A stretch of DNA of 64,000 bases from a bacterium BMS3Abin14. GTDB lineage: Bacteria; BMS3Abin14. The stretch is from NCBI GenBank assembly GCA_002897695.1, contig BDTG01000027.1:1-64000 (forward strand), read 5' to 3'. Made by a program: the position numbers and the translations under genes. The notes under the pieces are model-generated. The model was not told the origin of the DNA. It ran no database searches and saw only the letters and a program-made list of their open reading frames with translations. Positions 37,115 through 63,949 of the stretch are shown here, one piece after another. The number at the start of each line of letters is the position of its first letter. Position 1 is the first letter of the stretch.

Positions 37115-38887
37115 TCACCTGCCCTTGTTCGCCTTCAGCTTCATCTCAAGAAAGGACCTGTCGAGAGCCAATCCGGCATGGCTGAGAAAGATATCCAGGC
37201 TGTTGGTGGGGCCGATGCCTCCTTTGTCGAGACAATCATCGGCATACAGCACCACAGCAACCTTACCCATGCTCACCACAGGACCTATGTAAACCTCACT
37301 GGGCCTTATTCCGCCCAGGGCCTGAAAAAGCGCTTCCATGTCACCCTCCCGTGGAGCTCCGCGGTAGCTTTGCTGGGTCTGGATAACCTTCGAAAAGAGT
37401 GAATTTTCAAAGACAGGGAGAACCAGGGCACGAACAACCGAATCGGCCTTGCCCCCTGGCCCAAGATCCACCCCGAATTGACCTAACCCCTTCATGTCGA
37501 TCTTCCTTACGAGGAAAAGGACCGCTCTTGAAAAAATCTCGGTGGCAAACCTGAGGGTCAGGAGGGTGATCTCTCCGTGGACGTCACCCCTGTTCAGCTT
37601 GGAAACATATGATCTGAGCCTTTCCATGGAGGGGTCCTGTGGTACCTGAGCCCGTGCCTCCGATTTTTCTGCCAGATCGTCAAATGGCAGGTCCCATCCA
37701 GCGAGTTCATCGGAGAGCTCGCCCTGGATGTCGTAGAACATGCCCTCATCCCTGCCGGCATCCTCCGTAATTCCCATGGCGGAGGCAAGAAATTCGACGG
37801 CCTGCTCAAGGCCGGCGGTGTCCAGGGGTAAGAGGGACAGGTCCCGGATGCCGGCGGTTTTCTCCAGTAGCCCGGGGGGGGGGTCCCCTTCGAAGGTGAT
37901 GATTGTTGGAAGGTTCAGCCCCAGGTCCCATAGCGTGGTGATGATATCCAACCCGCCGAGAACGATTCCGTCGGTGATCCCGGCGGTCCTCAGGCCCAGG
38001 ACAAGGCAGGGATGTATATCATGCGACCGGAGTTCCTGGATCTTCGTCAGACCCGTGGCGGCATCCTCGATACACAGGATTGCAACTTCATGCTCCTTCA
38101 GATGTTTTTCCAGGACATCTGCCGGTTTCCTGTTGTCCGAAATGACCAGGACAACCTTTGAAATTCTCGAGGGTACCGTCGGAGGGGTAGCCGGCACAAT
38201 GAACTCCGCAACCTCGGAGAGCTGATGATCCTCTTCGGACACCTCGGGCGGGTTTCCAGCCTCAAAAGAACCTCCGGCATCAAACGACGGATCCTCCTCC
38301 AAACTCCCGGCCCGCGCTGCTTCATCACGGCGCCTGGCCCCTTCCATGACCATGAACTGTGCGTTTATCCCTTTGTCGAGGAAGAGCGGGACTGCAGGTT
38401 CCAGGAGCGGATGATCCTTCTCGGTGTCTATAAGCTGGAAGCTGAAGGTTCCTTCCTCCCAGTCGAAGAGGGAGAAAACAATCTCCTCAACCCTCTTTTT
38501 CAGGACTTTCTGAAATGATTCCCGGGATACGCCGAGAAGCTCGGATACGAGGTTCTTGAGATCTTTCGGGCGATCACAGAGTTCGAGGCGTCCCTTGATT
38601 TTCTCAATATCAGACACCTCAACGACGCCGTGGTGGACCAGAAGGCTGAGGATGCCCTCCTTCTCCCCTAACCGCCCGGCATAGATAATGACTCCATCCT
38701 TGATGTAGATGTTCGCCTCACCACGGGGGCCTTCCAGATTGAGCAATCCGGAGCGTTTACTGAGGCTGACGATCTGAAGGATCTCCCCCAGGGACAGATC
38801 TTCCAGTTTCCCTACCAGGCTCATGGCGGGATCCATTCTGCTTCGCGGATCCCTCGCGTCGGCCAATGTGGATCTCTTCTCGTTCAC
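37115..38887 (-). CDS. DUF4388 (PATAN) protein with degenerate receiver-like and C-terminal domains
   Basis: A 590-residue protein. Residues about 21-155 match DUF4388/PATAN (MSLVGKLEDLSLGEILQIV, SGLLNLEGPRGEANIYIKDG, VFSLFDWEEGTFSFQL). After an acidic linker, residues about 245-365 resemble a receiver (VVLVISDNRKPADVLEKHLK) but lack a clear phosphoacceptor (CLVLGLRTAG). The C-terminal 190 residues look GAF-like (GDVHGEITLLTLRFATEIF, VYIGPVVSMGKVAVVLYADD). PATAN proteins are adaptor-like and occur with CheY and MglA-type systems. The start overlaps the phosphoesterase stop (ATGA), linking the che genes to the upstream housekeeping operon. Confidence 0.83.
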   Translation of the reverse strand: MNEKRSTLADARDPRSRMDPAMSLVGKLEDLSLGEILQIVSLSKRSGLLNLEGPRGEANIYIKDGVIIYAGRLGEKEGILSLLVHHGVVEVSDIEKIKGRLELCDRPKDLKNLVSELLGVSRESFQKVLKKRVEEIVFSLFDWEEGTFSFQLIDTEKDHPLLEPAVPLFLDKGINAQFMVMEGARRRDEAARAGSLEEDPSFDAGGSFEAGNPPEVSEEDHQLSEVAEFIVPATPPTVPSRISKVVLVISDNRKPADVLEKHLKEHEVAILCIEDAATGLTKIQELRSHDIHPCLVLGLRTAGITDGIVLGGLDIITTLWDLGLNLPTIITFEGDPPPGLLEKTAGIRDLSLLPLDTAGLEQAVEFLASAMGITEDAGRDEGMFYDIQGELSDELAGWDLPFDDLAEKSEARAQVPQDPSMERLRSYVSKLNRGDVHGEITLLTLRFATEIFSRAVLFLVRKIDMKGLGQFGVDLGPGGKADSVVRALVLPVFENSLFSKVIQTQQSYRGAPREGDMEALFQALGGIRPSEVYIGPVVSMGKVAVVLYADDCLDKGGIGPTNSLDIFLSHAGLALDRSFLEMKLKANKGR

Positions 38888-47560: not shown

Positions 47561-48013
47561 TCAGGGGACATATCTGTCTTCCATCTTTCTCATGGCATCC
47601 GCCTCTTCCTCGCTGCCCTCATGGTCATATCCGAGAAGGTGGAGAACGCCATGGGTCAACAGCCTTCGAAGTTCCGCATCCAGTTCCGTTCCGAACTCAC
47701 GCGCCTGCTTTTTGGCACGATCCATTGAGATCACCACGTCCCCGAGAAGGCACGGCGCTCCTTCGAAGGGCAGGGTCTCGCCTTCCTGCTGGGAAAAGGA
47801 CAGGACATCAGTCGCACTGTCGATACCACGGTATTCCCGGTTAAGCTCCCTGATCTGTGCATCATCGGTTAAATAGAGGCTTAGTTCTCCATCAAGTCTG
47901 CCCAAGTCTTTTAATATTATGGAGGCCAGGGTCTTCAGCATCCTCATGTGCGGTTTCGACCCGGTGGTTTTGCTCCCTGTCAGAACCGTTGGTCTTTCTT
48001 CTTTTTTTGTCAT
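47561..48013 (-). CDS. ybeY: Endoribonuclease YbeY (16S rRNA maturation)
   Basis: A protein of about 150 residues with the zinc motif in LLTHGVLHLLGYDHEGSEE (HGxLHLxGYDH) and ELNREYRGIDSATDVLSF. YbeY takes part in 16S rRNA 3' processing and ribosome quality control. ATG 48013, with GAGG six bases upstream, lies inside the upstream HD-phosphohydrolase gene, giving an overlap of 122 bases. Shorter starts at 47947 or 47941 lack a ribosome site but would reduce the overlap. Confidence 0.93.
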   Translation of the reverse strand: MTKKEERPTVLTGSKTTGSKPHMRMLKTLASIILKDLGRLDGELSLYLTDDAQIRELNREYRGIDSATDVLSFSQQEGETLPFEGAPCLLGDVVISMDRAKKQAREFGTELDAELRRLLTHGVLHLLGYDHEGSEEEADAMRKMEDRYVP

Positions 48014-50387
48014 CCTTTTCCTCAGCGTTGGCCCGAAGGTCCGGATAGTCAATCCTGTGATGGAAAATTCCGGTAATTGTCCTGGTAAAGCTTTTGGCAA
48101 TCTGATGAAGGTCCCTGAGGGTCAGGTCTGATTCATCCAGTTGCCCATCAATGAAGACATCGTTGATAATCTTCTGGACCAGTCCGCGAATCCTGGCGGG
48201 GGTGGGATCAGTCAGGACCTTGGAGGCAGCCTCAACGGCGTCGGCCAGCATTATAAGCGCCGCCTCGCGGCTTTGCGGCTTGGGGCCAAAATAGCGAAAA
48301 TCCCTTTCATCCACGGTCTGGACGGATGGGTCCTCCTTCTCCTTGGCCTTATTGAAAAAGAAGGTTATCAGGCGGGTGCCGTGATGCTGTTTGATGATAT
48401 CCACTATCCTCCTGGGGAGGTGTTGTTCCCGCGCAACCTCCATGCCGTCCTTTACGTGGGCGGTGAGGATCAGGGCGCTCATGCTGGGTGAAAGTTTTTC
48501 ATGGCGATTGCCCCGGCTTTCCTGATTTTCCACAAAATATTCGGGTTTATTAATCTTGCCCACATCATGATACAGGGCAGCAACCTTGGTCAGAAGCGGA
48601 TTGGCCCCGATCTCCTCAGCGGCGGCTTCCGCCAGCGACCCAACAAGAACGCTGTGATGGTAACTTCCCGGGGCTCTCAGGATCATCTTCTTGAGAATGG
48701 GCTGATTGAGGTTTGCGAGTTCCATGAGCTTCATGTCGGTAGCCACCCGGAAACCCGATTCCATAACGGGGAGGGCAAGGGAGACAATGAGAGCGGCAAC
48801 AATTCCGCCTCCCAGAGCGAAGGGCAAATGCCAGAGGGTTCCGATGTTAAAAAGCCCACCGTCCTTGAGTGCGTTGACGAGAGCAAGAAGAACGCTTGCC
48901 CCTCCTACTGCGAGGCCGGCCTTGACGAGTGACGACCTTTGACGGCAGTGAATAACACTGAAGGATGCGACCACCCCGCCGATGAATGAATACAGGAAGG
49001 TCATCAGGCTCCATTCTGTCAGCAGACCGGAAAAAATGGATGTGACACCGGCGACTACGAAGCCCACGCTCACAGGAAAAAGCGTTGCGGCAATCATCGC
49101 TCCTGCGGAAAACGGCACTACGAGCGTTAAGGTCGCCAGGGTCAGACCGGTATAAGTGGTGGCAAGCGCCTGGACGAAAGCAAGGGAACCTTTTATCAAA
49201 ATCATCTGCAGGACAATAATTACCACAAGGATCACGAGGCTTTGCATATCCATTGCCACCTTCCGATCGACCCGCGAAAGGATTCGGAAGAAGACAAAAA
49301 GGACAATGGCCACCAGGATAAAAAGTCCAAGAATAAGTGTCAGCCGCCCCTGGTTGGGGCCGGAGTGACTCAGTGCGTGGATCTTGACAATTTTTTCGTC
49401 GGACAGGGGATCACCGGCCCGGACAATGACCTCTCCACGTTTCACCTGAAGGTAGACCGGTTTCGCCTCTGCGACCGCCTTGGCCTTGCGCGACTCGGTT
49501 GCGGAGCGGTTGAAAGTAAAGTTGGGGCGCACCAGATCCTGTGCCAGAGCCTCAAGAAGCTTCCTGAGCTTAAGTTCCTGTCTGGTCCACTTAACGGAGG
49601 AAAACACCTTTTTTACCCGGGCTCTTGCGGCTTTTTGAGAGAGGATGCTGGCAAAATCGTCCAGAACCATCTCCTGCCTGACCGCATCCAGCGTCCTGAC
49701 CGTTACCCCTCTGCCCCGCTCTTTGAGAAGAAGCTCCCTGTTTGAAACGATCCCCATCCCGCGGATAGGCTGCAGGGACTCCAACAGGATTTTCTGGCTT
49801 CTCTCGCTGAACCCATCCTTAAGAAGGGGGGCCATCTGTTCCAGAGAGACCCCGATTGACATGGATTCAATGAATTTCCCAACAGGTCCTTTCCTGGCCT
49901 CCTCAGCCTGTTTCCTGAACAGGTCGAGCTCCTCTTGAATCTGCGGCCTCGAATCCTTCGGGGCGTTACGGTACCTTCTTATCAGTTCCTCTTCCACGTT
50001 CTGCTGATCCGTGATGAGGTTCCGCATCTTCTGGAAAAAAAGTTTAATTTTATTGGTTGTCTCCAGGTCCTGCTTGCGATCGAAATCGTAGACAGCGAGG
50101 ACCGATGCCTCAGCCTCCAGTCTTCTTGCCTGAGTGGAGGCCTCATCCACCACGAGAATCGACTTGGACGCCTTGATGTCGCTTTTCGCTATGTCACCTA
50201 CCTGGTAATCCGCGTTCCGCGGCTGTCGGAAAGGTATGAGGATGTAGGTGATAAGCAAAACGGTAACCCAGAACAGGACAGACCACTGGACATCCCGGTC
50301 CCATTCCAACAACCACTTTACCCTGAAGAACCCGAGCCCCGATCCGGACCGTTTTCCCTCTTTTGCAGGCGCCTGCGATTTGGGCAT
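47892..50387 (-). CDS. PgpH-type membrane HD phosphohydrolase (7TMR-HDED, HDIG)
   Basis: An 831-residue protein. A first membrane segment near residue 40 is followed by a 7TMR-HDED extracytoplasmic domain (about 70-330), about seven membrane helices (about 340-540), and a cytosolic HD domain with SYHHSVLVGSLAEAAAEEIG, ALYHDVGKINKPEYF and IVDIIKQHHGTRLI. PgpH enzymes hydrolyse c-di-AMP to pApA. No c-di-AMP cyclase gene is visible. AGGGGG lies seven bases before the ATG. The phoH-pgpH-ybeY order is conserved in many bacteria. Confidence 0.94.
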   Translation of the reverse strand: MPKSQAPAKEGKRSGSGLGFFRVKWLLEWDRDVQWSVLFWVTVLLITYILIPFRQPRNADYQVGDIAKSDIKASKSILVVDEASTQARRLEAEASVLAVYDFDRKQDLETTNKIKLFFQKMRNLITDQQNVEEELIRRYRNAPKDSRPQIQEELDLFRKQAEEARKGPVGKFIESMSIGVSLEQMAPLLKDGFSERSQKILLESLQPIRGMGIVSNRELLLKERGRGVTVRTLDAVRQEMVLDDFASILSQKAARARVKKVFSSVKWTRQELKLRKLLEALAQDLVRPNFTFNRSATESRKAKAVAEAKPVYLQVKRGEVIVRAGDPLSDEKIVKIHALSHSGPNQGRLTLILGLFILVAIVLFVFFRILSRVDRKVAMDMQSLVILVVIIVLQMILIKGSLAFVQALATTYTGLTLATLTLVVPFSAGAMIAATLFPVSVGFVVAGVTSIFSGLLTEWSLMTFLYSFIGGVVASFSVIHCRQRSSLVKAGLAVGGASVLLALVNALKDGGLFNIGTLWHLPFALGGGIVAALIVSLALPVMESGFRVATDMKLMELANLNQPILKKMILRAPGSYHHSVLVGSLAEAAAEEIGANPLLTKVAALYHDVGKINKPEYFVENQESRGNRHEKLSPSMSALILTAHVKDGMEVAREQHLPRRIVDIIKQHHGTRLITFFFNKAKEKEDPSVQTVDERDFRYFGPKPQSREAALIMLADAVEAASKVLTDPTPARIRGLVQKIINDVFIDGQLDESDLTLRDLHQIAKSFTRTITGIFHHRIDYPDLRANAEEKDDKKRRKTNGSDREQNHRVETAHEDAEDPGLHNIKRLGQT

Positions 50388-50388
50388 G

Positions 50389-51333
50389 TCATAGCCCCCT
50401 TTTCTCGTATGCTCTTATGACCTGCTGAACAAGCGGGTGCCGGACTACGTCACCTTCATCGAAGTTCACAAAACTGATCCCTTCGATACCCTGGAGTATT
50501 TCCAAAACTTCCACCAGGCCTGAGGAGGATCTAACCGGAAGATCGATCTGTGTTATATCCCCCGTTATGACAGCCTTGGAATCAAACCCCAGGCGCGTCA
50601 GGAACATCTTCATCTGTTCGGTGGTTGAATTCTGGGCTTCATCAAGAATTACGAAAGAATCGTTAAGGGTTCGGCCGCGCATGAAAGCCAGAGGGGCTAT
50701 TTCAATAACCCCCCTGTCGATGAGTTTCAGCGCCTTCTCGGAGCTGAGCATCTCAAAGAGGGCATCGTATAAAGGTCTGAGGTAGGGGTTGACCTTCTCG
50801 TAAATATCTCCAGGAAGAAATCCAAGTTTTTCACCGGCCTCAACCGCCGGTCTGGCAAGGATAATTCTGCTTACTTCCTTTCTCACAAGGGCGAGAACCG
50901 CCGCAGCCATGGCCAGGTAGGTCTTACCGGTTCCTGCAGGCCCTACACCAAAAACGATATCGTCTTCCCGTATCTTCTTGAGGTAAAACCTTTGATTGAC
51001 ACTCCTCGGCACGATCGATTTACGGGGAGAAATAATGATCGTCTGGGACATTAGCTCCGATAGTTCAGGTTTTTCACCATCCGCAACCTGCCCGAACAAT
51101 CCCTCAAGCTCCTCGCGTGTAATCCTGGCCCCCCGATCAACGGTGCTCAGAATATCGCGGATTACCCTTTCCACCTCATCAACTTTTTCAGCCGGCCCTT
51201 CCAGAAAGACCTTCTCCCCACGGATGCCGACGCGAACCCCGGTGAGACTTTCGATGGTTTTCAGGTTGCTGTCCAGGTCCCCGGTCAGCACACGGGCCTG
51301 ATGTTCATTATCCAGTTTAAGAGCCCTTTTCAC
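50389..51333 (-). CDS. PhoH family ATPase
   Basis: A 314-residue PhoH-like P-loop protein. Walker A is VGPAGTGKTYLAMAAAV, Walker B is SFVILDEAQNSTTEQMK, and RLGFDSKAVITGDITQIDLP follows. An N-terminal KH-like region precedes the ATPase. PhoH-like proteins pair with YbeY and are suspected RNA-handling factors. The start is GTG with GAGG seven bases upstream. It is one base from the HD-phosphohydrolase gene. Confidence 0.93.
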   Translation of the reverse strand: MKRALKLDNEHQARVLTGDLDSNLKTIESLTGVRVGIRGEKVFLEGPAEKVDEVERVIRDILSTVDRGARITREELEGLFGQVADGEKPELSELMSQTIIISPRKSIVPRSVNQRFYLKKIREDDIVFGVGPAGTGKTYLAMAAAVLALVRKEVSRIILARPAVEAGEKLGFLPGDIYEKVNPYLRPLYDALFEMLSSEKALKLIDRGVIEIAPLAFMRGRTLNDSFVILDEAQNSTTEQMKMFLTRLGFDSKAVITGDITQIDLPVRSSSGLVEVLEILQGIEGISFVNFDEGDVVRHPLVQQVIRAYEKRGL

Positions 51334-51351: not shown

Positions 51352-52554
51352 TCAATCTTCCGGCGACTCGATAACCGGACCGTTTTCAGATGCCCTCACG
51401 GTGTAGGGTTGGGCGAAGGGATAGGTAGCGTCCGATGGCAAAATGAATTCGCTTTGGACAAGGTCTCCGACAGCCGCGGGATAAACCCCCTTTTCAAGCC
51501 GGTAGACATGCATGGCGAGATTCAGGCGTAATGTCTGTGCCTCGCTGACGGACCTTCTTATCATCACAGCTTTTTCGGATGTCATCCTTGAGAAGAGAAG
51601 AAGACGGTAGCCGGAAATGCTCAAGACCGAAAAAGCGGCAAAGAGCACGCCGGAAAGCACCGCAAATGTCATGAACATGGGAAAAAGCCTTTTTCCCGCC
51701 TGCCCCTTTCCCTCTTTTTCGATAGCCCTGGGCGTTGACGCAGGCGTCTTGACGGGCTTGACAAGACCGAACCCAAGGAGGTCAACAACGCTCCTGGCGG
51801 CCTCAAAATCACCTAGAAGTGATCTATATGCAATATCACCAACCGTCCATTGGCCATCGATGAGATCAAAAACCATCTCCTGGTCGGCGGTGAGCAGGGT
51901 TTTATCCCCATCGTACGGTTTGGGCTTTTCCTCTCCGAAAATGTCGATATCGGACATATCCTCTTTTACCTGAGCACTCATCTGAGATCTTCTGAGAATC
52001 TTATCCTCTGCCTCCGGAAGCCTGGTGAACACCATGTCCAACGAGGGAATCTTCCCCTTGATGCCAGGCCATTCATCGATTATTCGAGCTGCCTCCATGA
52101 GCACAAATTCCGCCGCCAGGGGGGTCAACAGTTGCGTGTCGTAACTGACGTTCCCTCCTTCAAAACGGTAGTTTCCGCTTGTCCACTGGAATATTTTGAA
52201 TAGGGTTTCCCTGATCTGAAAGGTCAGGACCGCTTTAAACTGTTCGGGAGTAATGTATCCCTTTTCCTGGATGATATTGCCGAGTTTCTTCATGGTCCGT
52301 ACCTGTTCCTGGAGGACGTCATCGAGTTGCATTCGGTCAACCAGGCCGGATTTGAGAAGAATATCTCCAATCCTCTCTTTGGCAAGGGTCTTTGCGGTTC
52401 CGGATTCGGCATTCACAACTTTTCCCAGGTCGAAGGTTACGGCAACCCTCTTCCCTTTGTCCTCCAGGTGGAGGATCCCCGTCTTTCTCTGATGGGAAAT
52501 AAGCTGAAAAATATCGGAGAGACCGAAATCCTTGAGAGTGCCCTTGAGCGCCAT
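51352..52554 (-). CDS. DUF4388 (PATAN) protein with MshEN-like tandem motif and C-terminal membrane segment
   Basis: A protein of about 400 residues. Residues 1-60 and about 125-160 match DUF4388 (MALKGTLKDFGLSDIFQLI; TLFKIFQWTSGNYRFEGG). Between them lie two 24-residue motifs separated by exactly five residues, RIGDILLKSGLVDRMQLDD... and KLGNIIQEKGYITPEQFKA..., each ending LxxQ-type, the pattern of the c-di-GMP-binding MshEN domain. A single membrane helix (FPMFMTFAVLSGVLFAAF) and a short periplasmic tail with a pilin-like flavour follow. ATG 52554 is preferred over the frame's upstream opening. It lies just after the TPR gene. Confidence 0.82.
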   Translation of the reverse strand: MALKGTLKDFGLSDIFQLISHQRKTGILHLEDKGKRVAVTFDLGKVVNAESGTAKTLAKERIGDILLKSGLVDRMQLDDVLQEQVRTMKKLGNIIQEKGYITPEQFKAVLTFQIRETLFKIFQWTSGNYRFEGGNVSYDTQLLTPLAAEFVLMEAARIIDEWPGIKGKIPSLDMVFTRLPEAEDKILRRSQMSAQVKEDMSDIDIFGEEKPKPYDGDKTLLTADQEMVFDLIDGQWTVGDIAYRSLLGDFEAARSVVDLLGFGLVKPVKTPASTPRAIEKEGKGQAGKRLFPMFMTFAVLSGVLFAAFSVLSISGYRLLLFSRMTSEKAVMIRRSVSEAQTLRLNLAMHVYRLEKGVYPAAVGDLVQSEFILPSDATYPFAQPYTVRASENGPVIESPED

Positions 52555-52558
52555 AACC

Positions 52559-54553
52559 CTAAGCCCTCTCCAGCTTTCGGCCGACACTGTACAGGGCCGC
52601 GAGGTAGTAGACGACAAAAAAGGCAACAAACAGGATTCTGGCCCCGGATCCCGTCTGGAATGCCAGGTGTGTCGTGTCCCTGTACAACCCATACCAAAGA
52701 ACCCACTTGGCCCAGAAACAGGTGGTGAGGATAATCATGAGCACAGACTGCCAACCGGCGCCAAGCAGGAAGTGGCCCGTCCCCGGGAACAGAACGGTTG
52801 AAAACCTCGCAAGGAGCGCCCTTTTCCTCTTGAAGCGCATTATTTGCATCATTTTTCTGACTCTCCTGGCGGGATCAATACCGGTCCTGATCTTGAAAAT
52901 CTGCCTGCACTGTGAGCAGAAGGATTCATCGCTCGACTCGCTGCATTTCGGACAGTGAAGCCTGCCGCACTGTCTGCACCGCCCGGCGGTGGGCAGTCGG
53001 CTTGCAAGCGGCCAACCGGCGAGGACAAGAAGGGCCGCCATGGGAAACACAAACCATGAAAAAGCGAAGGGTAGTCCCGGGATAAGATCCGACCAGAGGT
53101 CCTCCCTCCACCTGATCCCGTCGGGAGAAAGCTTGGCAGCGCCCTTAAGATATTCCATGAGACTGCCGGAAATATCCATGGTGATCCTGTGCCTCTCTCC
53201 AGGTTGACCGGTTACAAGGCTGCCGGCGAGTTCAGGGTCCATTTCCTGGGCTTTTCTAAATTCCTCTTCACCCTCATCCAACTGGAGGCTTTCGCGAAGC
53301 GCCTGGCTGAGGTTGTAATGGATGCGGGGGTCATCGCTGTATCGGAGCGCCCTTTTGTAAAGATCAATGGAATCGGTAAACCTCCCGGATCCCATCAGCA
53401 CGTTGGCCAGGTTGTTGAGGACAGAGGGTGACTCCGGATCTTTTTCCAGCGCCTGCCTCAGGAGGGATTCTGCCTCCCGGACCCTTTCCCCCCGTTTTAG
53501 AACAATGGCAAGGGTGGAAAGGACCCGCACATTATCAGGATCCTGAACACGCAGTTTGTGGAGTTCATCTATGGTCCTGATTCCTTCCCCGCTCATCTGT
53601 GCGGTGTAGACGGTAAGGCCGCTTCCTCCGCCATAAAAAGCGTTGTTCAGTGCAAGGACATGCACAAACAACGGCAGGGAGATGAGAAGGAAAATCGTAA
53701 GGGCTACGGCCACGCGTTCGCCTGAATTGAGATGGGCCACCAGAAGGACGCCCACCAGGATTACCCACATGATGAAAACCATGCCGGTAAGCAGCAGAAG
53801 CCCGAGAAGAACGGGAATAATGATGTACCAGACCCACTGGGGAACCCGGACTATGTGGGATAGATCATGGGCAGCCCGCGGGAATACGCGGATCGAAAAC
53901 AGAAAAATCGTCACGATGGAAGCGATCGACACGCTGGCGAGAATCCACAGCATCAACCCTGTAACCCATGGAAACAGGGAACGAAAATCCTGGAAGAATG
54001 CACCCCATCCTTCCAGAATAGCGTCAAGGGAGGCGAGGACGCGCAGCCGGCTCTGTCGCCATATGGTATTTGCTCTCAGAAAAAATGACTGGGGGTAATC
54101 CGGGGCGAGTTTCCCGGCATAATCAATCAGTTCCAGTGCATCCTTGTATCGGGATTGCTCCACGGCCTGAGACGCTTCCAAAAGGATGGCCGCGGCAGGA
54201 AGGTAGAGATCGGGAATACCGGTTTGAACACGATAGCCGACAATTTTGGCAAGGTTTTTCTTCGCCTCCGTCAGGTTTCCCCTGACGGCATTCTGACGGT
54301 AGGCAAACCAATCACCCTCCCACGGCGCGCGAACACCCACGGGAGGACCCCCGGAAGACCCGCCGGGGGAAAGCCCTTCACTGATCGCCTGGGACATATC
54401 AAGCACATCGGCCAGGGGAAAATCGACCGTCAGCTCGCTCACCTCGACCGCAACCGCCGTAATGGGGAAAACAGCCACAAGGATGAGAGCCAGAAGAAAA
54501 CAGACGGCAACCGTTCTCAAAATGGGGATCTCACCTTTTCTCCTTGACGGCAT
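52559..54553 (-). CDS. TPR-repeat integral membrane protein with zinc-finger cluster
   Basis: A protein of about 664 residues: an N-terminal signal or anchor (residues 10-37), a helical region with TPR-like repeats, three membrane helices near 205-300, further TPRs (ESLLRQALEKDPESPSVLNN, DSIDLYKRALRYSDDPRIHY in blocks), another helix, a Cys-rich cluster (CRQCGRLHCPKCSE, CSQC), and a C-terminal hydrophobic pair. No enzyme motif is seen. The start is uncertain: ATG 54553 lies inside the DUF1844 gene, while TTG 54517 has AGGTGAG nine bases upstream. Function unknown; it may assemble a membrane complex with the adjacent DUF4388 protein. Confidence 0.75.
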   Translation of the reverse strand: MPSRRKGEIPILRTVAVCFLLALILVAVFPITAVAVEVSELTVDFPLADVLDMSQAISEGLSPGGSSGGPPVGVRAPWEGDWFAYRQNAVRGNLTEAKKNLAKIVGYRVQTGIPDLYLPAAAILLEASQAVEQSRYKDALELIDYAGKLAPDYPQSFFLRANTIWRQSRLRVLASLDAILEGWGAFFQDFRSLFPWVTGLMLWILASVSIASIVTIFLFSIRVFPRAAHDLSHIVRVPQWVWYIIIPVLLGLLLLTGMVFIMWVILVGVLLVAHLNSGERVAVALTIFLLISLPLFVHVLALNNAFYGGGSGLTVYTAQMSGEGIRTIDELHKLRVQDPDNVRVLSTLAIVLKRGERVREAESLLRQALEKDPESPSVLNNLANVLMGSGRFTDSIDLYKRALRYSDDPRIHYNLSQALRESLQLDEGEEEFRKAQEMDPELAGSLVTGQPGERHRITMDISGSLMEYLKGAAKLSPDGIRWREDLWSDLIPGLPFAFSWFVFPMAALLVLAGWPLASRLPTAGRCRQCGRLHCPKCSESSDESFCSQCRQIFKIRTGIDPARRVRKMMQIMRFKRKRALLARFSTVLFPGTGHFLLGAGWQSVLMIILTTCFWAKWVLWYGLYRDTTHLAFQTGSGARILFVAFFVVYYLAALYSVGRKLERA

Positions 54554-54962
54554 TCAAGTATTTCCATTTCAACTCGGCCGAGGCGTTCTCAAAAAATTGC
54601 ACCTCCTCCTCCTCAAGGTTTCCCTTCGTCTTCTCCTTCAGAATATCGAGAATGTCAATCGTCTGTTTCGCTGCTTCCAGATTCTGGTCCTGCTTGCCAT
54701 TGACGGGATCAGGCATCTCCCCCATCTGGATGAGGGCCGAGCTGAAAAGGGAAAAGATAAAAGTGGAGAAGTCAACCCTGGGCGTTCTGTCACCTGGCGC
54801 ATCGCTTCCCCCTGCATCGGGTTCCCGTTCTTCAGGGGCCCCGGGCGTTTCCTTCCCGCTGTCTACCTCTGCGGTTTCCCCACTGGAGCCATCTTTTCCT
54901 CCGTGGGAAGTTCTCCGGTCCTCGACCTTGAACTTTTTGCCGTCGTCGGTTTCCTCGGACAT
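54531..54962 (-). CDS. DUF1844 domain protein
   Basis: A protein of about 143 residues. The first 60 are acidic and low-complexity; the rest is DUF1844 (VDFSTFIFSLFSSALIQMGE, NLEAAKQTIDILDILKEKTKG, LEEEEVQFFENASAELKWKY read in blocks). DUF1844 is a small helical family of unknown function common in deltaproteobacteria. ATG 54962 has GGGAGG seven bases upstream and is preferred over ATG 54977. It is the first gene of the long minus-strand block and overlaps the TPR gene by 23 bases if that starts at 54553. Confidence 0.85.
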   Translation of the reverse strand: MSEETDDGKKFKVEDRRTSHGGKDGSSGETAEVDSGKETPGAPEEREPDAGGSDAPGDRTPRVDFSTFIFSLFSSALIQMGEMPDPVNGKQDQNLEAAKQTIDILDILKEKTKGNLEEEEVQFFENASAELKWKYLNAVKEKR

Positions 54963-55121
54963 ATCCATACCTCCCATTCAGAGTGAATCCTGCCGGATGG
55001 ACTTCAGCGAGTCCATCGGAATACGTCGTGGAATATACCAATTAAATCAGGATGCTTGCAAGTACCACTACTTCCCCTCAATCTCCTCCAAAGTATTAAG
55101 AACAGCGTTCATTCCGGGATC

Positions 55122-61163: not shown

Positions 61164-61192
61164 TTAGGGGGAGATCAGGACCGGCCCCCTAA
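61164..61192. terminator. Hairpin between convergent permease and kinase genes
   Basis: TTAGGGGG (61164-61171) pairs with CCCCCTAA (61185-61192) across a 13-base loop. It includes the kinase stop codon and lies between two convergent genes, where a shared terminator would be expected. There is no T tract, so the call is weak. Confidence 0.35.
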
Positions 61193-62934
61193 TGCAGCTC
61201 AGTCCCGGCCTCCCTGTACTCTCCGAAGGTTATCCGGAACATCGTCCCATTTTCCCGATGGATCTCCAGGCGCCCTCCCAGGAGCTCAACGAGTGTCCGG
61301 ACCAGATTAAGACCCAGAGAGCTGAAACTGCCCGGATCCCTGCCGGCCGGCATCCCCACGCCGTTATCGGCCACCGTCAGGACATACCCGCTTCCCTTGG
61401 ACCCATGGAATGCGATCCTCACCTCCCCGTCCTGTCTCCCCGAAAAGGCATGTTTATAGGCATTGGTGATAAGTTCGTTGATAATGAGCCCGGCGGGGAT
61501 AGCAGTATCAATAACGAGGTCGCCTTCTTCAAGATCAAAGATGAACCCGATCTCCTTTTCTTCCTGTCTGTAGGATGAGGATATGCTCCCTACGAGACTG
61601 CGCACGTAATTGGCAAAATTTATCCGGCCGAGATCCCGGTTGTTGTAGAGGTTCTCGTGGATAAGGGCCATGCTCATCACCCGGTTTTCGCTCTCACGGT
61701 AAAGATCCCTGACCGTTTCATCACCGGCATGCCGCCCCTGAAGATTGAGAAGTCCGGAGACCATCTGAAGATTATTTTTTACCCGGTGATGTATTTCCTT
61801 AAGCAGAATCTCCTTCTCCTGGAGGGACTCGTGGAGATTCGCCTCAACTTTCCTGCGTTCCTCCAAAAGACCCTCAATTTTTTGGGCATGACGCATGGTG
61901 GTCCACAGGAAAACGCACAGCAGGCCGATGAAAATCAGTCCGCCGGTCAGGATCATGGAGCTCTCGCCGAAATTCTGCCCATAATGCCCTGGAGTCGGGT
62001 AGAACAGCACGGACCATGCGCGGCCCGGAATACTCAGATTCGTTCGATAATGAACACCCTGGAGGACGGCATCCGGAACTCCGTAAAACGACTCGGGTTT
62101 GTGGACCCCGCCGGTTGCGTTATAATCGTAGAGAAACCCCCGGCCGGGCGGAGCTGAATCGTCAAACAGGTAGAACCCTATACTTTCCAGATTCCGCCCC
62201 TTGATGGCCTCGGCCACCAGGTCGGTAATGCTGAAAACCCCGAGGGCGAAACCCTGCAGATCCGACATGGGGTCTTCAGGGGCGACCGGGGAAATGCCGC
62301 CCTGGTATATGGGCCGAATGATCAGAAACCCGTAAATATCGCCCGTCTCCTGCACAAGGGTTAACCTGCCTGAGGATGCCATCTTCCCGGTCTCTATGGA
62401 CCTTTGGAGGGTTTCCAGACGAGCAGGATCCGATCTCAGATCGAACCCGAGAGCTGTCCGGTTTTCCTGGAGACTCACCCGATAATACACGGGGAAATAC
62501 CAGGGTCTCCGTCCGGCTCTCCTCATAACACCCTGGCTCACCCGTTCAGTGAACTGAAAACCCTTCATCCCATCCGCCCTGGCCAGTTCCTCATATCTGT
62601 CTCTATCCCTGTCCCTCACCGCAGGCACCCAGTTCAGGGCCCGGATCTGTGCATATCGAAGCAGGGGAGCTTCCACAAATTTCGCGAACTCATCTCTTTC
62701 TACAAAGACAGAGGCGTTAAAAAAGCTTCCTATCGACTCGACAACTCCGGTGGATTGATCGATCTGGTTCTGAATATCCTTGGCATAGTCCTTCATCTTC
62801 GAATCGAAGATGGTTATCGCCAGGGTTCGCTCATTTTCCCTTACGGTTCGCCATACGATCAATAACAGGATGACGCTGAGGAGGATGACGGATACCGCAT
62901 AGAGATACCGCCGATGGAACAGTCTGACGGGCAT
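61189..62934 (-). CDS. CHASE-domain sensor histidine kinase (HisKA_2/HATPase)
   Basis: A membrane kinase of about 581 residues: membrane helix one (about 11-28), an extracytoplasmic CHASE domain (about 60-270; RALNWVPAVRDRDRDRYEEL and ALGFDLRSDPARLETL in blocks), helix two (about 325-347), and a HisKA_2 domain with the phospho-His in KEIHHRVKNNLQMVSGLLNL, then HATPase with LIINELITNAYKHAF and VADNGVGMPAG. CHASE domains sense small ligands. ATG 62934 is preferred over the upstream frame opening at 63003. Its partner may be the receiver-PilZ protein upstream. Confidence 0.92.
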   Translation of the reverse strand: MPVRLFHRRYLYAVSVILLSVILLLIVWRTVRENERTLAITIFDSKMKDYAKDIQNQIDQSTGVVESIGSFFNASVFVERDEFAKFVEAPLLRYAQIRALNWVPAVRDRDRDRYEELARADGMKGFQFTERVSQGVMRRAGRRPWYFPVYYRVSLQENRTALGFDLRSDPARLETLQRSIETGKMASSGRLTLVQETGDIYGFLIIRPIYQGGISPVAPEDPMSDLQGFALGVFSITDLVAEAIKGRNLESIGFYLFDDSAPPGRGFLYDYNATGGVHKPESFYGVPDAVLQGVHYRTNLSIPGRAWSVLFYPTPGHYGQNFGESSMILTGGLIFIGLLCVFLWTTMRHAQKIEGLLEERRKVEANLHESLQEKEILLKEIHHRVKNNLQMVSGLLNLQGRHAGDETVRDLYRESENRVMSMALIHENLYNNRDLGRINFANYVRSLVGSISSSYRQEEKEIGFIFDLEEGDLVIDTAIPAGLIINELITNAYKHAFSGRQDGEVRIAFHGSKGSGYVLTVADNGVGMPAGRDPGSFSSLGLNLVRTLVELLGGRLEIHRENGTMFRITFGEYREAGTELH

Positions 62935-63208
62935 GGCCTTTTCCCCATTCACGGTTTTGCAGTGCACGAAGATCAGGAACCGATTCGGATAAATTGGCAA
63001 CAATCAGTGAAACGGTAACGAGCGGCCCCTGAACCCCCGATTGGGATGCGTGGATAATACAACAGTAGGCCCCTGTCCCGCAACTTATTGAAAGGCATGG
63101 CTATCCAGAGATCCGGTGCAGGGATTATCCGGCAGATTCGCTGTCCGTCATGGAGATGTGAATTTCAGACTGTGGCTTCCCTGGAATAATGGAATAGAAG
63201 CGGGATGT

Positions 63209-63949
63209 TCACAGGGGAAAAGAATTTTTTAGTCTTGGCAGACCTTTAACCGGATCCTTCTTCAGCACCATGCGCACATAATCATCAATATGTGCCTTCT
63301 CAACGGAGTCAATAATGAGAAATCGCATCCCGGCCCCCTCGGGTCCGTTTTCTCCGAACCTTCCGGTCCAGACCACCGCCGCCCAACGTACATACACCGC
63401 CCTTTCCTGACCTGGGAGGTTAAAACGGATTTCAAACATTTCACCAGGAACGGGAAGTGTATCCAGATCAACGAAGGCCCCATCCGAGGATAGTGAAAGA
63501 ACGTTGGCATTCACATTGACGTTCCCCATGGAAACTGTGCAGGGCAGGGACAATTCAGCCCTTTCCGTATGCCTTTGGCCCGAGCCAAGCAGCTCCTCGA
63601 CGATTGCAGTCAGAAGGTCACGTCTGATGGGTTTCTGGATCAACCCGTCGCACAGCGCTGTATTCGCCACGATCCTGGAGGATTCCAGGGAGCCTGAGCT
63701 GACGATTATGATGGGGATGGAACGGGTGAGGGGATCGCTTTTCAGGCTGCGGCAAACCTCCGGTCCTGTCAAATCGGGCATGATATGATCAAGGAGGATG
63801 AGATCAGGCATCAGGCCCCGTGCCATTTCCAGGGCATCACGGCCACACCGGGCAGTAAAGAAATCGAATCCGTCCCGTCCCAGGCAGGAAATCTCCTGCT
63901 GAATGAAGAACTCATTGTCGTCAACAACGAGAACCCGCTTTTTTTCCAT
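63209..63949 (-). CDS. Receiver-PilZ response regulator
   Basis: A 246-residue protein. Residues 5-120 are a receiver with VLVVDDNEFF, the phosphoacceptor in LILLDHIMPDLTG, IIIVSSGS and the Lys in IQKPI. Residues 130-235 are a PilZ-like domain with the beta-barrel block LSSDGAFVDLDTLPVPGE and GAGMRFLII; the classical RxxxR c-di-GMP motif is weak (RHTERAELSLP). AAGGGA lies before the ATG. It is upstream of the CHASE kinase on the same strand across a 205-base gap that otherwise shows no gene or clear signal. Confidence 0.88.
   Translation of the reverse strand: MEKKRVLVVDDNEFFIQQEISCLGRDGFDFFTARCGRDALEMARGLMPDLILLDHIMPDLTGPEVCRSLKSDPLTRSIPIIIVSSGSLESSRIVANTALCDGLIQKPIRRDLLTAIVEELLGSGQRHTERAELSLPCTVSMGNVNVNANVLSLSSDGAFVDLDTLPVPGEMFEIRFNLPGQERAVYVRWAAVVWTGRFGENGPEGAGMRFLIIDSVEKAHIDDYVRMVLKKDPVKGLPRLKNSFPL

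Follow-up and report, generated by a model that had tools for sequence, protein, structure and literature searches.

A predicted c-di-GMP-binding MshEN unit nested within a DUF4388 membrane protein with a GspG-like domain

In many bacteria, the enzymes that make c-di-GMP outnumber the known receptors. One described receptor module is the MshEN domain of MshE, PilB/GspE-type ATPases, NfrB and PilF GSPII-B, and its 53-residue 24-5-24 motif pair, four-helix fold and contact residues recur, the fold by prediction, in a 400-aa protein encoded on the minus strand (51352-52554) of the window, by which we mean the whole 64,000-nt stretch of contig BDTG01000027.1 that was analysed. In contrast to these relatives, the unit in the 400-aa protein is inserted inside a DUF4388 domain rather than placed N-terminal to an ATPase or glycosyltransferase, and there is no recognisable MshEN_C subdomain. 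A second point of comparison is PATAN (PatA N-terminus), probably the same domain as DUF4388 and likewise reported to carry an alpha-helical insertion; the source genome has two compact receiver-fused copies of DUF4388. The 400-aa protein is membrane-anchored, unlike the known PATAN proteins, which are soluble response regulators. The PilZ proteins of the source genome, including the receiver-PilZ protein at 63209, are also predicted c-di-GMP receptors, but their fold is unrelated and they are not in the gene group of the 400-aa protein.

An ORF check in the window placed the ATG at 52554 and the stop at 51352. The start MALKGTL is common to all orthologs, and the sequence GGAGAGG lies 5' of the ATG. 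The class to which the protein belongs, currently annotated merely as "DUF4388 domain-containing protein," is a widespread, uncharacterised family of bacterial membrane proteins.

An MshEN motif pair inside DUF4388

The preliminary description of this DNA reported two 24-residue segments with a five-residue spacer, and both fit its pattern exactly. Motif I (RIGDILLKSGLVDRMQLDDVLQEQ; aa 61-84, 52303-52374, minus strand) is followed by the spacer VRTMK (aa 85-89, 52288-52302) and motif II (KLGNIIQEKGYITPEQFKAVLTFQ; aa 90-113, 52216-52287). A six-frame translation of the window contains the pair a single time, and 200,000 shuffles of the 400-aa protein yielded a single motif in 9 cases and the pair in none. 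The NCBIfam model NF053729 (c-di-GMP_motif) matched aa 61-113 over its full length (model positions 1-53 of 53) and scored 53.4 bits where the cut-off is 38 (E = 1.6e-14), so that the profile search suggested in the preliminary description did return an MshEN hit. Together with the fold match and the kept contact residues described below, this match defines a nested MshEN_N unit with a predicted c-di-GMP pocket (aa 61-113, 52216-52374, minus strand). Sequence searches of the PDB with the 400-aa protein found PilF and MshE, and a family profile found PilF, MshE and several PilB proteins, with E-values down to 3e-27.

A Pfam scan of the 400-aa protein gave no T2SSE_N/MshEN-type match and, in line with the preliminary description, no ATPase domain; these results place the protein outside the ATPase-fused class of Pfam T2SSE_N. 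The relaxed motif of the 2016 paper, a search aid rather than a strict definition, was passed by motif I and failed by motif II, because motif II has a Gln where the relaxed motif wants a hydrophobic helix-core residue; in MshE this position is part of the helix core and makes no ligand contact (PMC5013675). The Pfam scan also gave a weak FumaraseC_C match at aa 80-111 (about 52222-52317), and Foldseek returned fumarase/aspartase as well. We rejected a kinship with these enzymes, as the matches probably reflect similar helical hairpins.

PF14332 (DUF4388) matched the protein above its gathering score (116 bits, cut-off 25; E = 1.2e-33) in two stretches flanking the motif pair, in agreement with the earlier DUF4388 assignment. 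From this match and the alignment with compact paralogs, the N-terminal half of the domain, beta-rich in the model, covers aa 1-57 (52384-52554, minus strand) and its C-terminal part covers aa 115-165 (52060-52212, minus strand). The compact paralogs are two DUF4388 copies of ~100 aa in the same genome, each adjoining a receiver domain (recognised from its sequence). In an alignment with these copies, the extra residues of the 400-aa protein form one uninterrupted insertion at about aa 57-114, corresponding to the MshEN unit. The MshEN unit is thus nested inside DUF4388, and it is precisely this stretch that the compact paralogs are missing.

PATAN was defined in 2006 (Makarova et al.; cited in PMC11580455 and PMC7690835), in a paper whose title includes the words "with an alpha-helical insertion". 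A PF14332 match in Synechococcus elongatus and the receiver fusions in the source genome are both consistent with DUF4388 being PATAN. We take the two domains to be the same, and with the aligned insertion this would make the helical insertion of PATAN, at least here, an MshEN_N unit. We found no paper on a DUF4388-MshEN combination or on the PATAN insertion as MshEN in the literature searched; the supplementary tables of the 2016 MshEN paper may list the combination.

Two further nested copies were seen in the same genome. A 590-aa DUF4388 protein in the window (37115-38887, minus strand) carries a helical insert at the corresponding position, yet has lost pocket residues (5 of 10 features), and it is, judged by its sequence, a natural non-binding comparison for the 400-aa protein. 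On contig C28 (36762-37211, plus strand), DUF4388 with a nested MshEN unit, its second motif less complete, is followed by a receiver-like region.

Predicted fold and conservation of the pocket

The nested DUF4388-MshEN part was modelled with AlphaFold2 without templates, using an alignment of 72 nested domains from many families picked for at least eight of ten pocket features. The model reached a pLDDT of 91.0 and a pTM of 0.82, the training set of AlphaFold including MshE structures. Its four helices (aa 62-68, 74-87, 91-97 and 103-122) correspond to those of MshEN_N, and the fourth, the last helix of motif II, is predicted to run on into DUF4388. The top PDB fold match was c-di-GMP-bound MshE (5htl_B; 0.7 Å over 53 residues, 32% identity, probability 1.00), with a Foldseek E of 0.09 that is weak because just 53 of the 185 residues align. 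The next match after MshE was the c-di-GMP-bound GSPII-B domain of PilF. Thus, where the preliminary description would have counted a fold unlike MshEN against its reading, the model predicts the four-helix MshEN_N fold. An earlier full-length model from 13 sequences was set aside at a pLDDT of 67, and a fold search with it gave nothing.

Because the sequences behind the model were picked for the pocket, we argue conservation from two other alignments, of 13 and 27 sequences, that were not. Eight of the twelve ligand contacts, G63, L77, L81, Q84, L91, G92, F106 and Q113, are invariant in the 13 homologs, which extend down to 33% identity; they correspond in order to G11, L25, L29, Q32, L39, G40, L54 and Q61 of MshE. 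The 400-aa protein differs from MshE in having Phe for L54 and Lys for R38. Contacts were more conserved than the remaining MshEN unit in both alignments (p = 0.0026 with 13 homologs, p = 0.0028 with 27). When helix-core positions served as the reference, the difference was p = 0.023 with 13 homologs but not significant with 27 (p = 0.11), and some of the conservation may therefore be structural. The first motif residue is R, K or L among relatives. PilF GSPII-B can bind with nanomolar affinity when K or L takes the position of the first Arg, the K167L variant having a KD of 2 nM (PMC11731258).

Each of the 12 genomes in the window's family has an intact pocket, and both there and in Myxococcaceae every key contact is kept, including both Gln and both Gly. 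Searching 386 genomes with the nested profile revealed many full-length matches across families. Among 72 distinct survey domains, all ten pocket features were present in 24, eight or nine in 26, and fewer in 22. On a tree of 49 proteins with a GspG-like tail (unclear in a few), the pocket is degenerate in 14, spread over several lineages, and the pattern of intact and degenerate pockets requires several changes. We therefore rejected the pocket as a constant feature of the module, which, given its degeneration in several tail-bearing lineages, can work without c-di-GMP. The presence of GGDEF proteins does not separate the two states, as they were found in 57 of 57 genomes with intact and degenerate pockets alike. 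From these sequence comparisons, c-di-GMP binding is probable in the window's family and Myxococcaceae, and it is not a fixed property of the architecture.

Membrane helix, GspG-like domain and partner gene

Beyond DUF4388, a winged-helix-like segment may occupy about aa 215-270 (51745-51912, minus strand), where some homologs have weak TrmB/MarR-type Pfam matches and the low-confidence full-length model has helices and short strands. The membrane helix reported earlier is present, a single one by hydropathy at about aa 293-311 (51622-51678, minus strand), preceded by RRRK in orthologs. The greater number of Lys and Arg residues on its N-terminal side suggests that the N-terminus, and with it DUF4388-MshEN, is in the cytoplasm.

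The remaining C-terminal region, about aa 335-398 (51361-51552, minus strand), resembles, judged by its homologs and the family profile, the major pseudopilin GspG (PF08334) and is predicted to be periplasmic. The family shares the C-terminal pattern ALxxYxLExGxYPxxLxxL...DPWGxxYxY, and its C-terminal profile matched GspG structures in the PDB (best E = 1.5e-9). Pfam T2SSG matches were found in 18 of 27 homologs (E up to 1) and in 13 of 25 (E up to 0.1), several of them above the curated cut-off. The 400-aa protein alone, being too divergent, had no Pfam T2SSG match. Unlike GspG, it joins the domain to a cytoplasmic sensor and has no N-terminal prepilin signal or cleavage site, since its N-terminus is DUF4388 and its membrane helix is internal. 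A further difference is the calcium-loop-like tail: the segment DPWG...D-G...DD(I/V), present in other homologs, is absent from the 400-aa protein, as from the window's family and Myxococcaceae.

Four nucleotides upstream lies a gene for a 664-aa polytopic membrane protein (52559-54553, minus strand) with several membrane helices, TPR repeats and a zinc-ribbon-like Cys cluster; the Pfam scan matched its TPR part alone. Using a profile of the non-TPR part, to which some of the loci had contributed, we found this partner directly upstream at 22 of 23 diverse loci with a GspG-like tail and at 0 of 16 other nested-DUF4388 loci (Fisher p = 4.5e-10), where all tail-bearing loci after the first seven had been selected by visual inspection of their C-termini, ahead of any search for the partner in them. 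The gene group is headed by a DUF1844 gene (54531-54977, minus strand; PF08899, E = 3.4e-27), which is present in several related loci. Downstream are a phoH-like gene (50389-51333, minus strand), assigned from sequence and from synteny in relatives, and a gene for a PgpH-type 7TM-HD protein (47892-50387, minus strand; PF07697, PF07698, PF01966), for which synteny also speaks. Family members share the order DUF1844, TPR/zinc-ribbon protein, 400-aa protein, PhoH, PgpH, YbeY and divergent MazG to the extent that their contigs cover it. Myxococcaceae, including Myxococcus xanthus, have the same order without a detected DUF1844 gene, and distant relatives mostly keep just the TPR/zinc-ribbon gene. 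A Myxococcaceae-type gene and operon were also present on contig BNCN01000006.1, labelled Comamonas sp. KCTC 72670, and for this reason the record is probably mislabelled or contaminated.

A putative c-di-GMP receptor and its alternatives

Genome-wide searches matched 11 GGDEF, 7 PilZ and 7 MshEN-type domains, and by all signs in the sequence c-di-GMP exists in the source organism. Drawing on the computed domain content, nesting, fold, pocket conservation, topology estimate and gene pair, we consider it reasonably likely that the 400-aa protein is a bitopic membrane c-di-GMP receptor which relays to its GspG-like periplasmic domain and acts with its partner. In this model, the cytoplasmic four-helix MshEN_N unit sits between the beta part of DUF4388 and the closing helix, and c-di-GMP would clamp and lock the four helices. 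Since the last MshEN helix is continuous with DUF4388, binding should reshape DUF4388 and alter its contacts with a cytoplasmic target. The change would then be passed on by the lone membrane helix to the periplasmic GspG-like domain, the receptor acting in concert with the polytopic TPR/zinc-ribbon protein whose gene lies immediately upstream, and the output would probably be envelope behaviour or behaviour related to type IV pili or secretion. Binding of the ligand, the conformational relay, a physical complex with the partner and the output are inferred, as is every step past the pocket; the full-length model is too poor for the relay to be read from it. The preliminary description had proposed a membrane-linked c-di-GMP receptor, and as a prediction this stands on the family profile, the fold, the conserved contacts and the c-di-GMP enzymes of the genome. 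Its motif pair, DUF4388 and helix were correct; it missed the nesting, the GspG-like C-terminus and the dedicated partner gene.

The main alternative, which we regard as unlikely, is that the MshEN unit is a non-binding structural insertion, as in XpsE (PMC5013675). Degenerate versions are indeed common, with 22 of the 72 survey domains, the window paralog among them, below eight of ten pocket features, and for cyanobacterial PATAN domains direct binding to the pilus motor PilB has been reported (PMC10519157). A structural insertion is harder to reconcile with the retention of all key contacts, both Gln and both Gly among them, in the window's family and Myxococcaceae, or with a profile score above the curated NF053729 cut-off. 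The PilB interaction bears also on a quite improbable reading in which the GspG-like tail makes the protein a genuine component, or an assembly factor, of a machine for type II secretion or type IV pili whose assembly is regulated by c-di-GMP. The GspG matches of the C-terminal profile would fit such a role, as would the T2SSE-type ATPases encoded in the genome, two with their own MshEN. However, DUF4388 takes the place of a prepilin signal, the calcium-loop-like segment is missing in the window's family and Myxococcaceae, and pilus or secretion genes were not seen among the examined neighbours in the gene group. For the bitopic receptor itself, PilB binding by PATAN and the T2SSE-type ATPases make, by analogy, a pilus- or secretion-linked output plausible.

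The conserved position of the PgpH-type c-di-AMP phosphodiesterase gene, two genes downstream, and a DAC cyclase domain in the genome led us to weigh c-di-AMP as the ligand, sensed together with the PgpH-type protein. We judge this very unlikely, because MshE rejects c-di-AMP: the V. cholerae MshEN does not bind it, and backbone amides at two Gly, which are invariant here, select guanine O6/N7 (PMC5013675). Moreover, most of the gene pair's distant relatives lack the phoH-pgpH-ybeY group.

If correct, the receptor model describes an unusual protein, crossing the membrane once, with a c-di-GMP sensor inside and a pseudopilin-like domain outside, and offers a concrete class of candidate c-di-GMP receptors that would account for the helical insertion of DUF4388 and tie DUF4388 to a conserved partner gene. 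More tentatively, the helical insertion of DUF4388/PATAN may generally be an MshEN pocket, and one branch of the family may form, with the dedicated TPR/zinc-ribbon partner, a two-gene, in-to-out c-di-GMP system in many lineages. Such a system, sending a c-di-GMP signal outward through a pseudopilin-like periplasmic domain, would be previously unrecognised. M. xanthus is a tractable laboratory organism with pili and development under c-di-GMP control, and because its orthologs share the gene order, the idea is directly testable there.

The preliminary description had also linked the protein to the PilZ gene at 63209. We considered this tie and found it weakly founded, as the receiver-PilZ protein (63209-63949) is related to the 400-aa protein by distance alone (~10 kb) and belongs to a different gene group, which includes a neighbouring CHASE histidine kinase. 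That CHASE-HisKA_2 kinase adjoins the receiver-PilZ protein (61189-63949 together, minus strand), and the two likely form a two-component system with a PilZ output.
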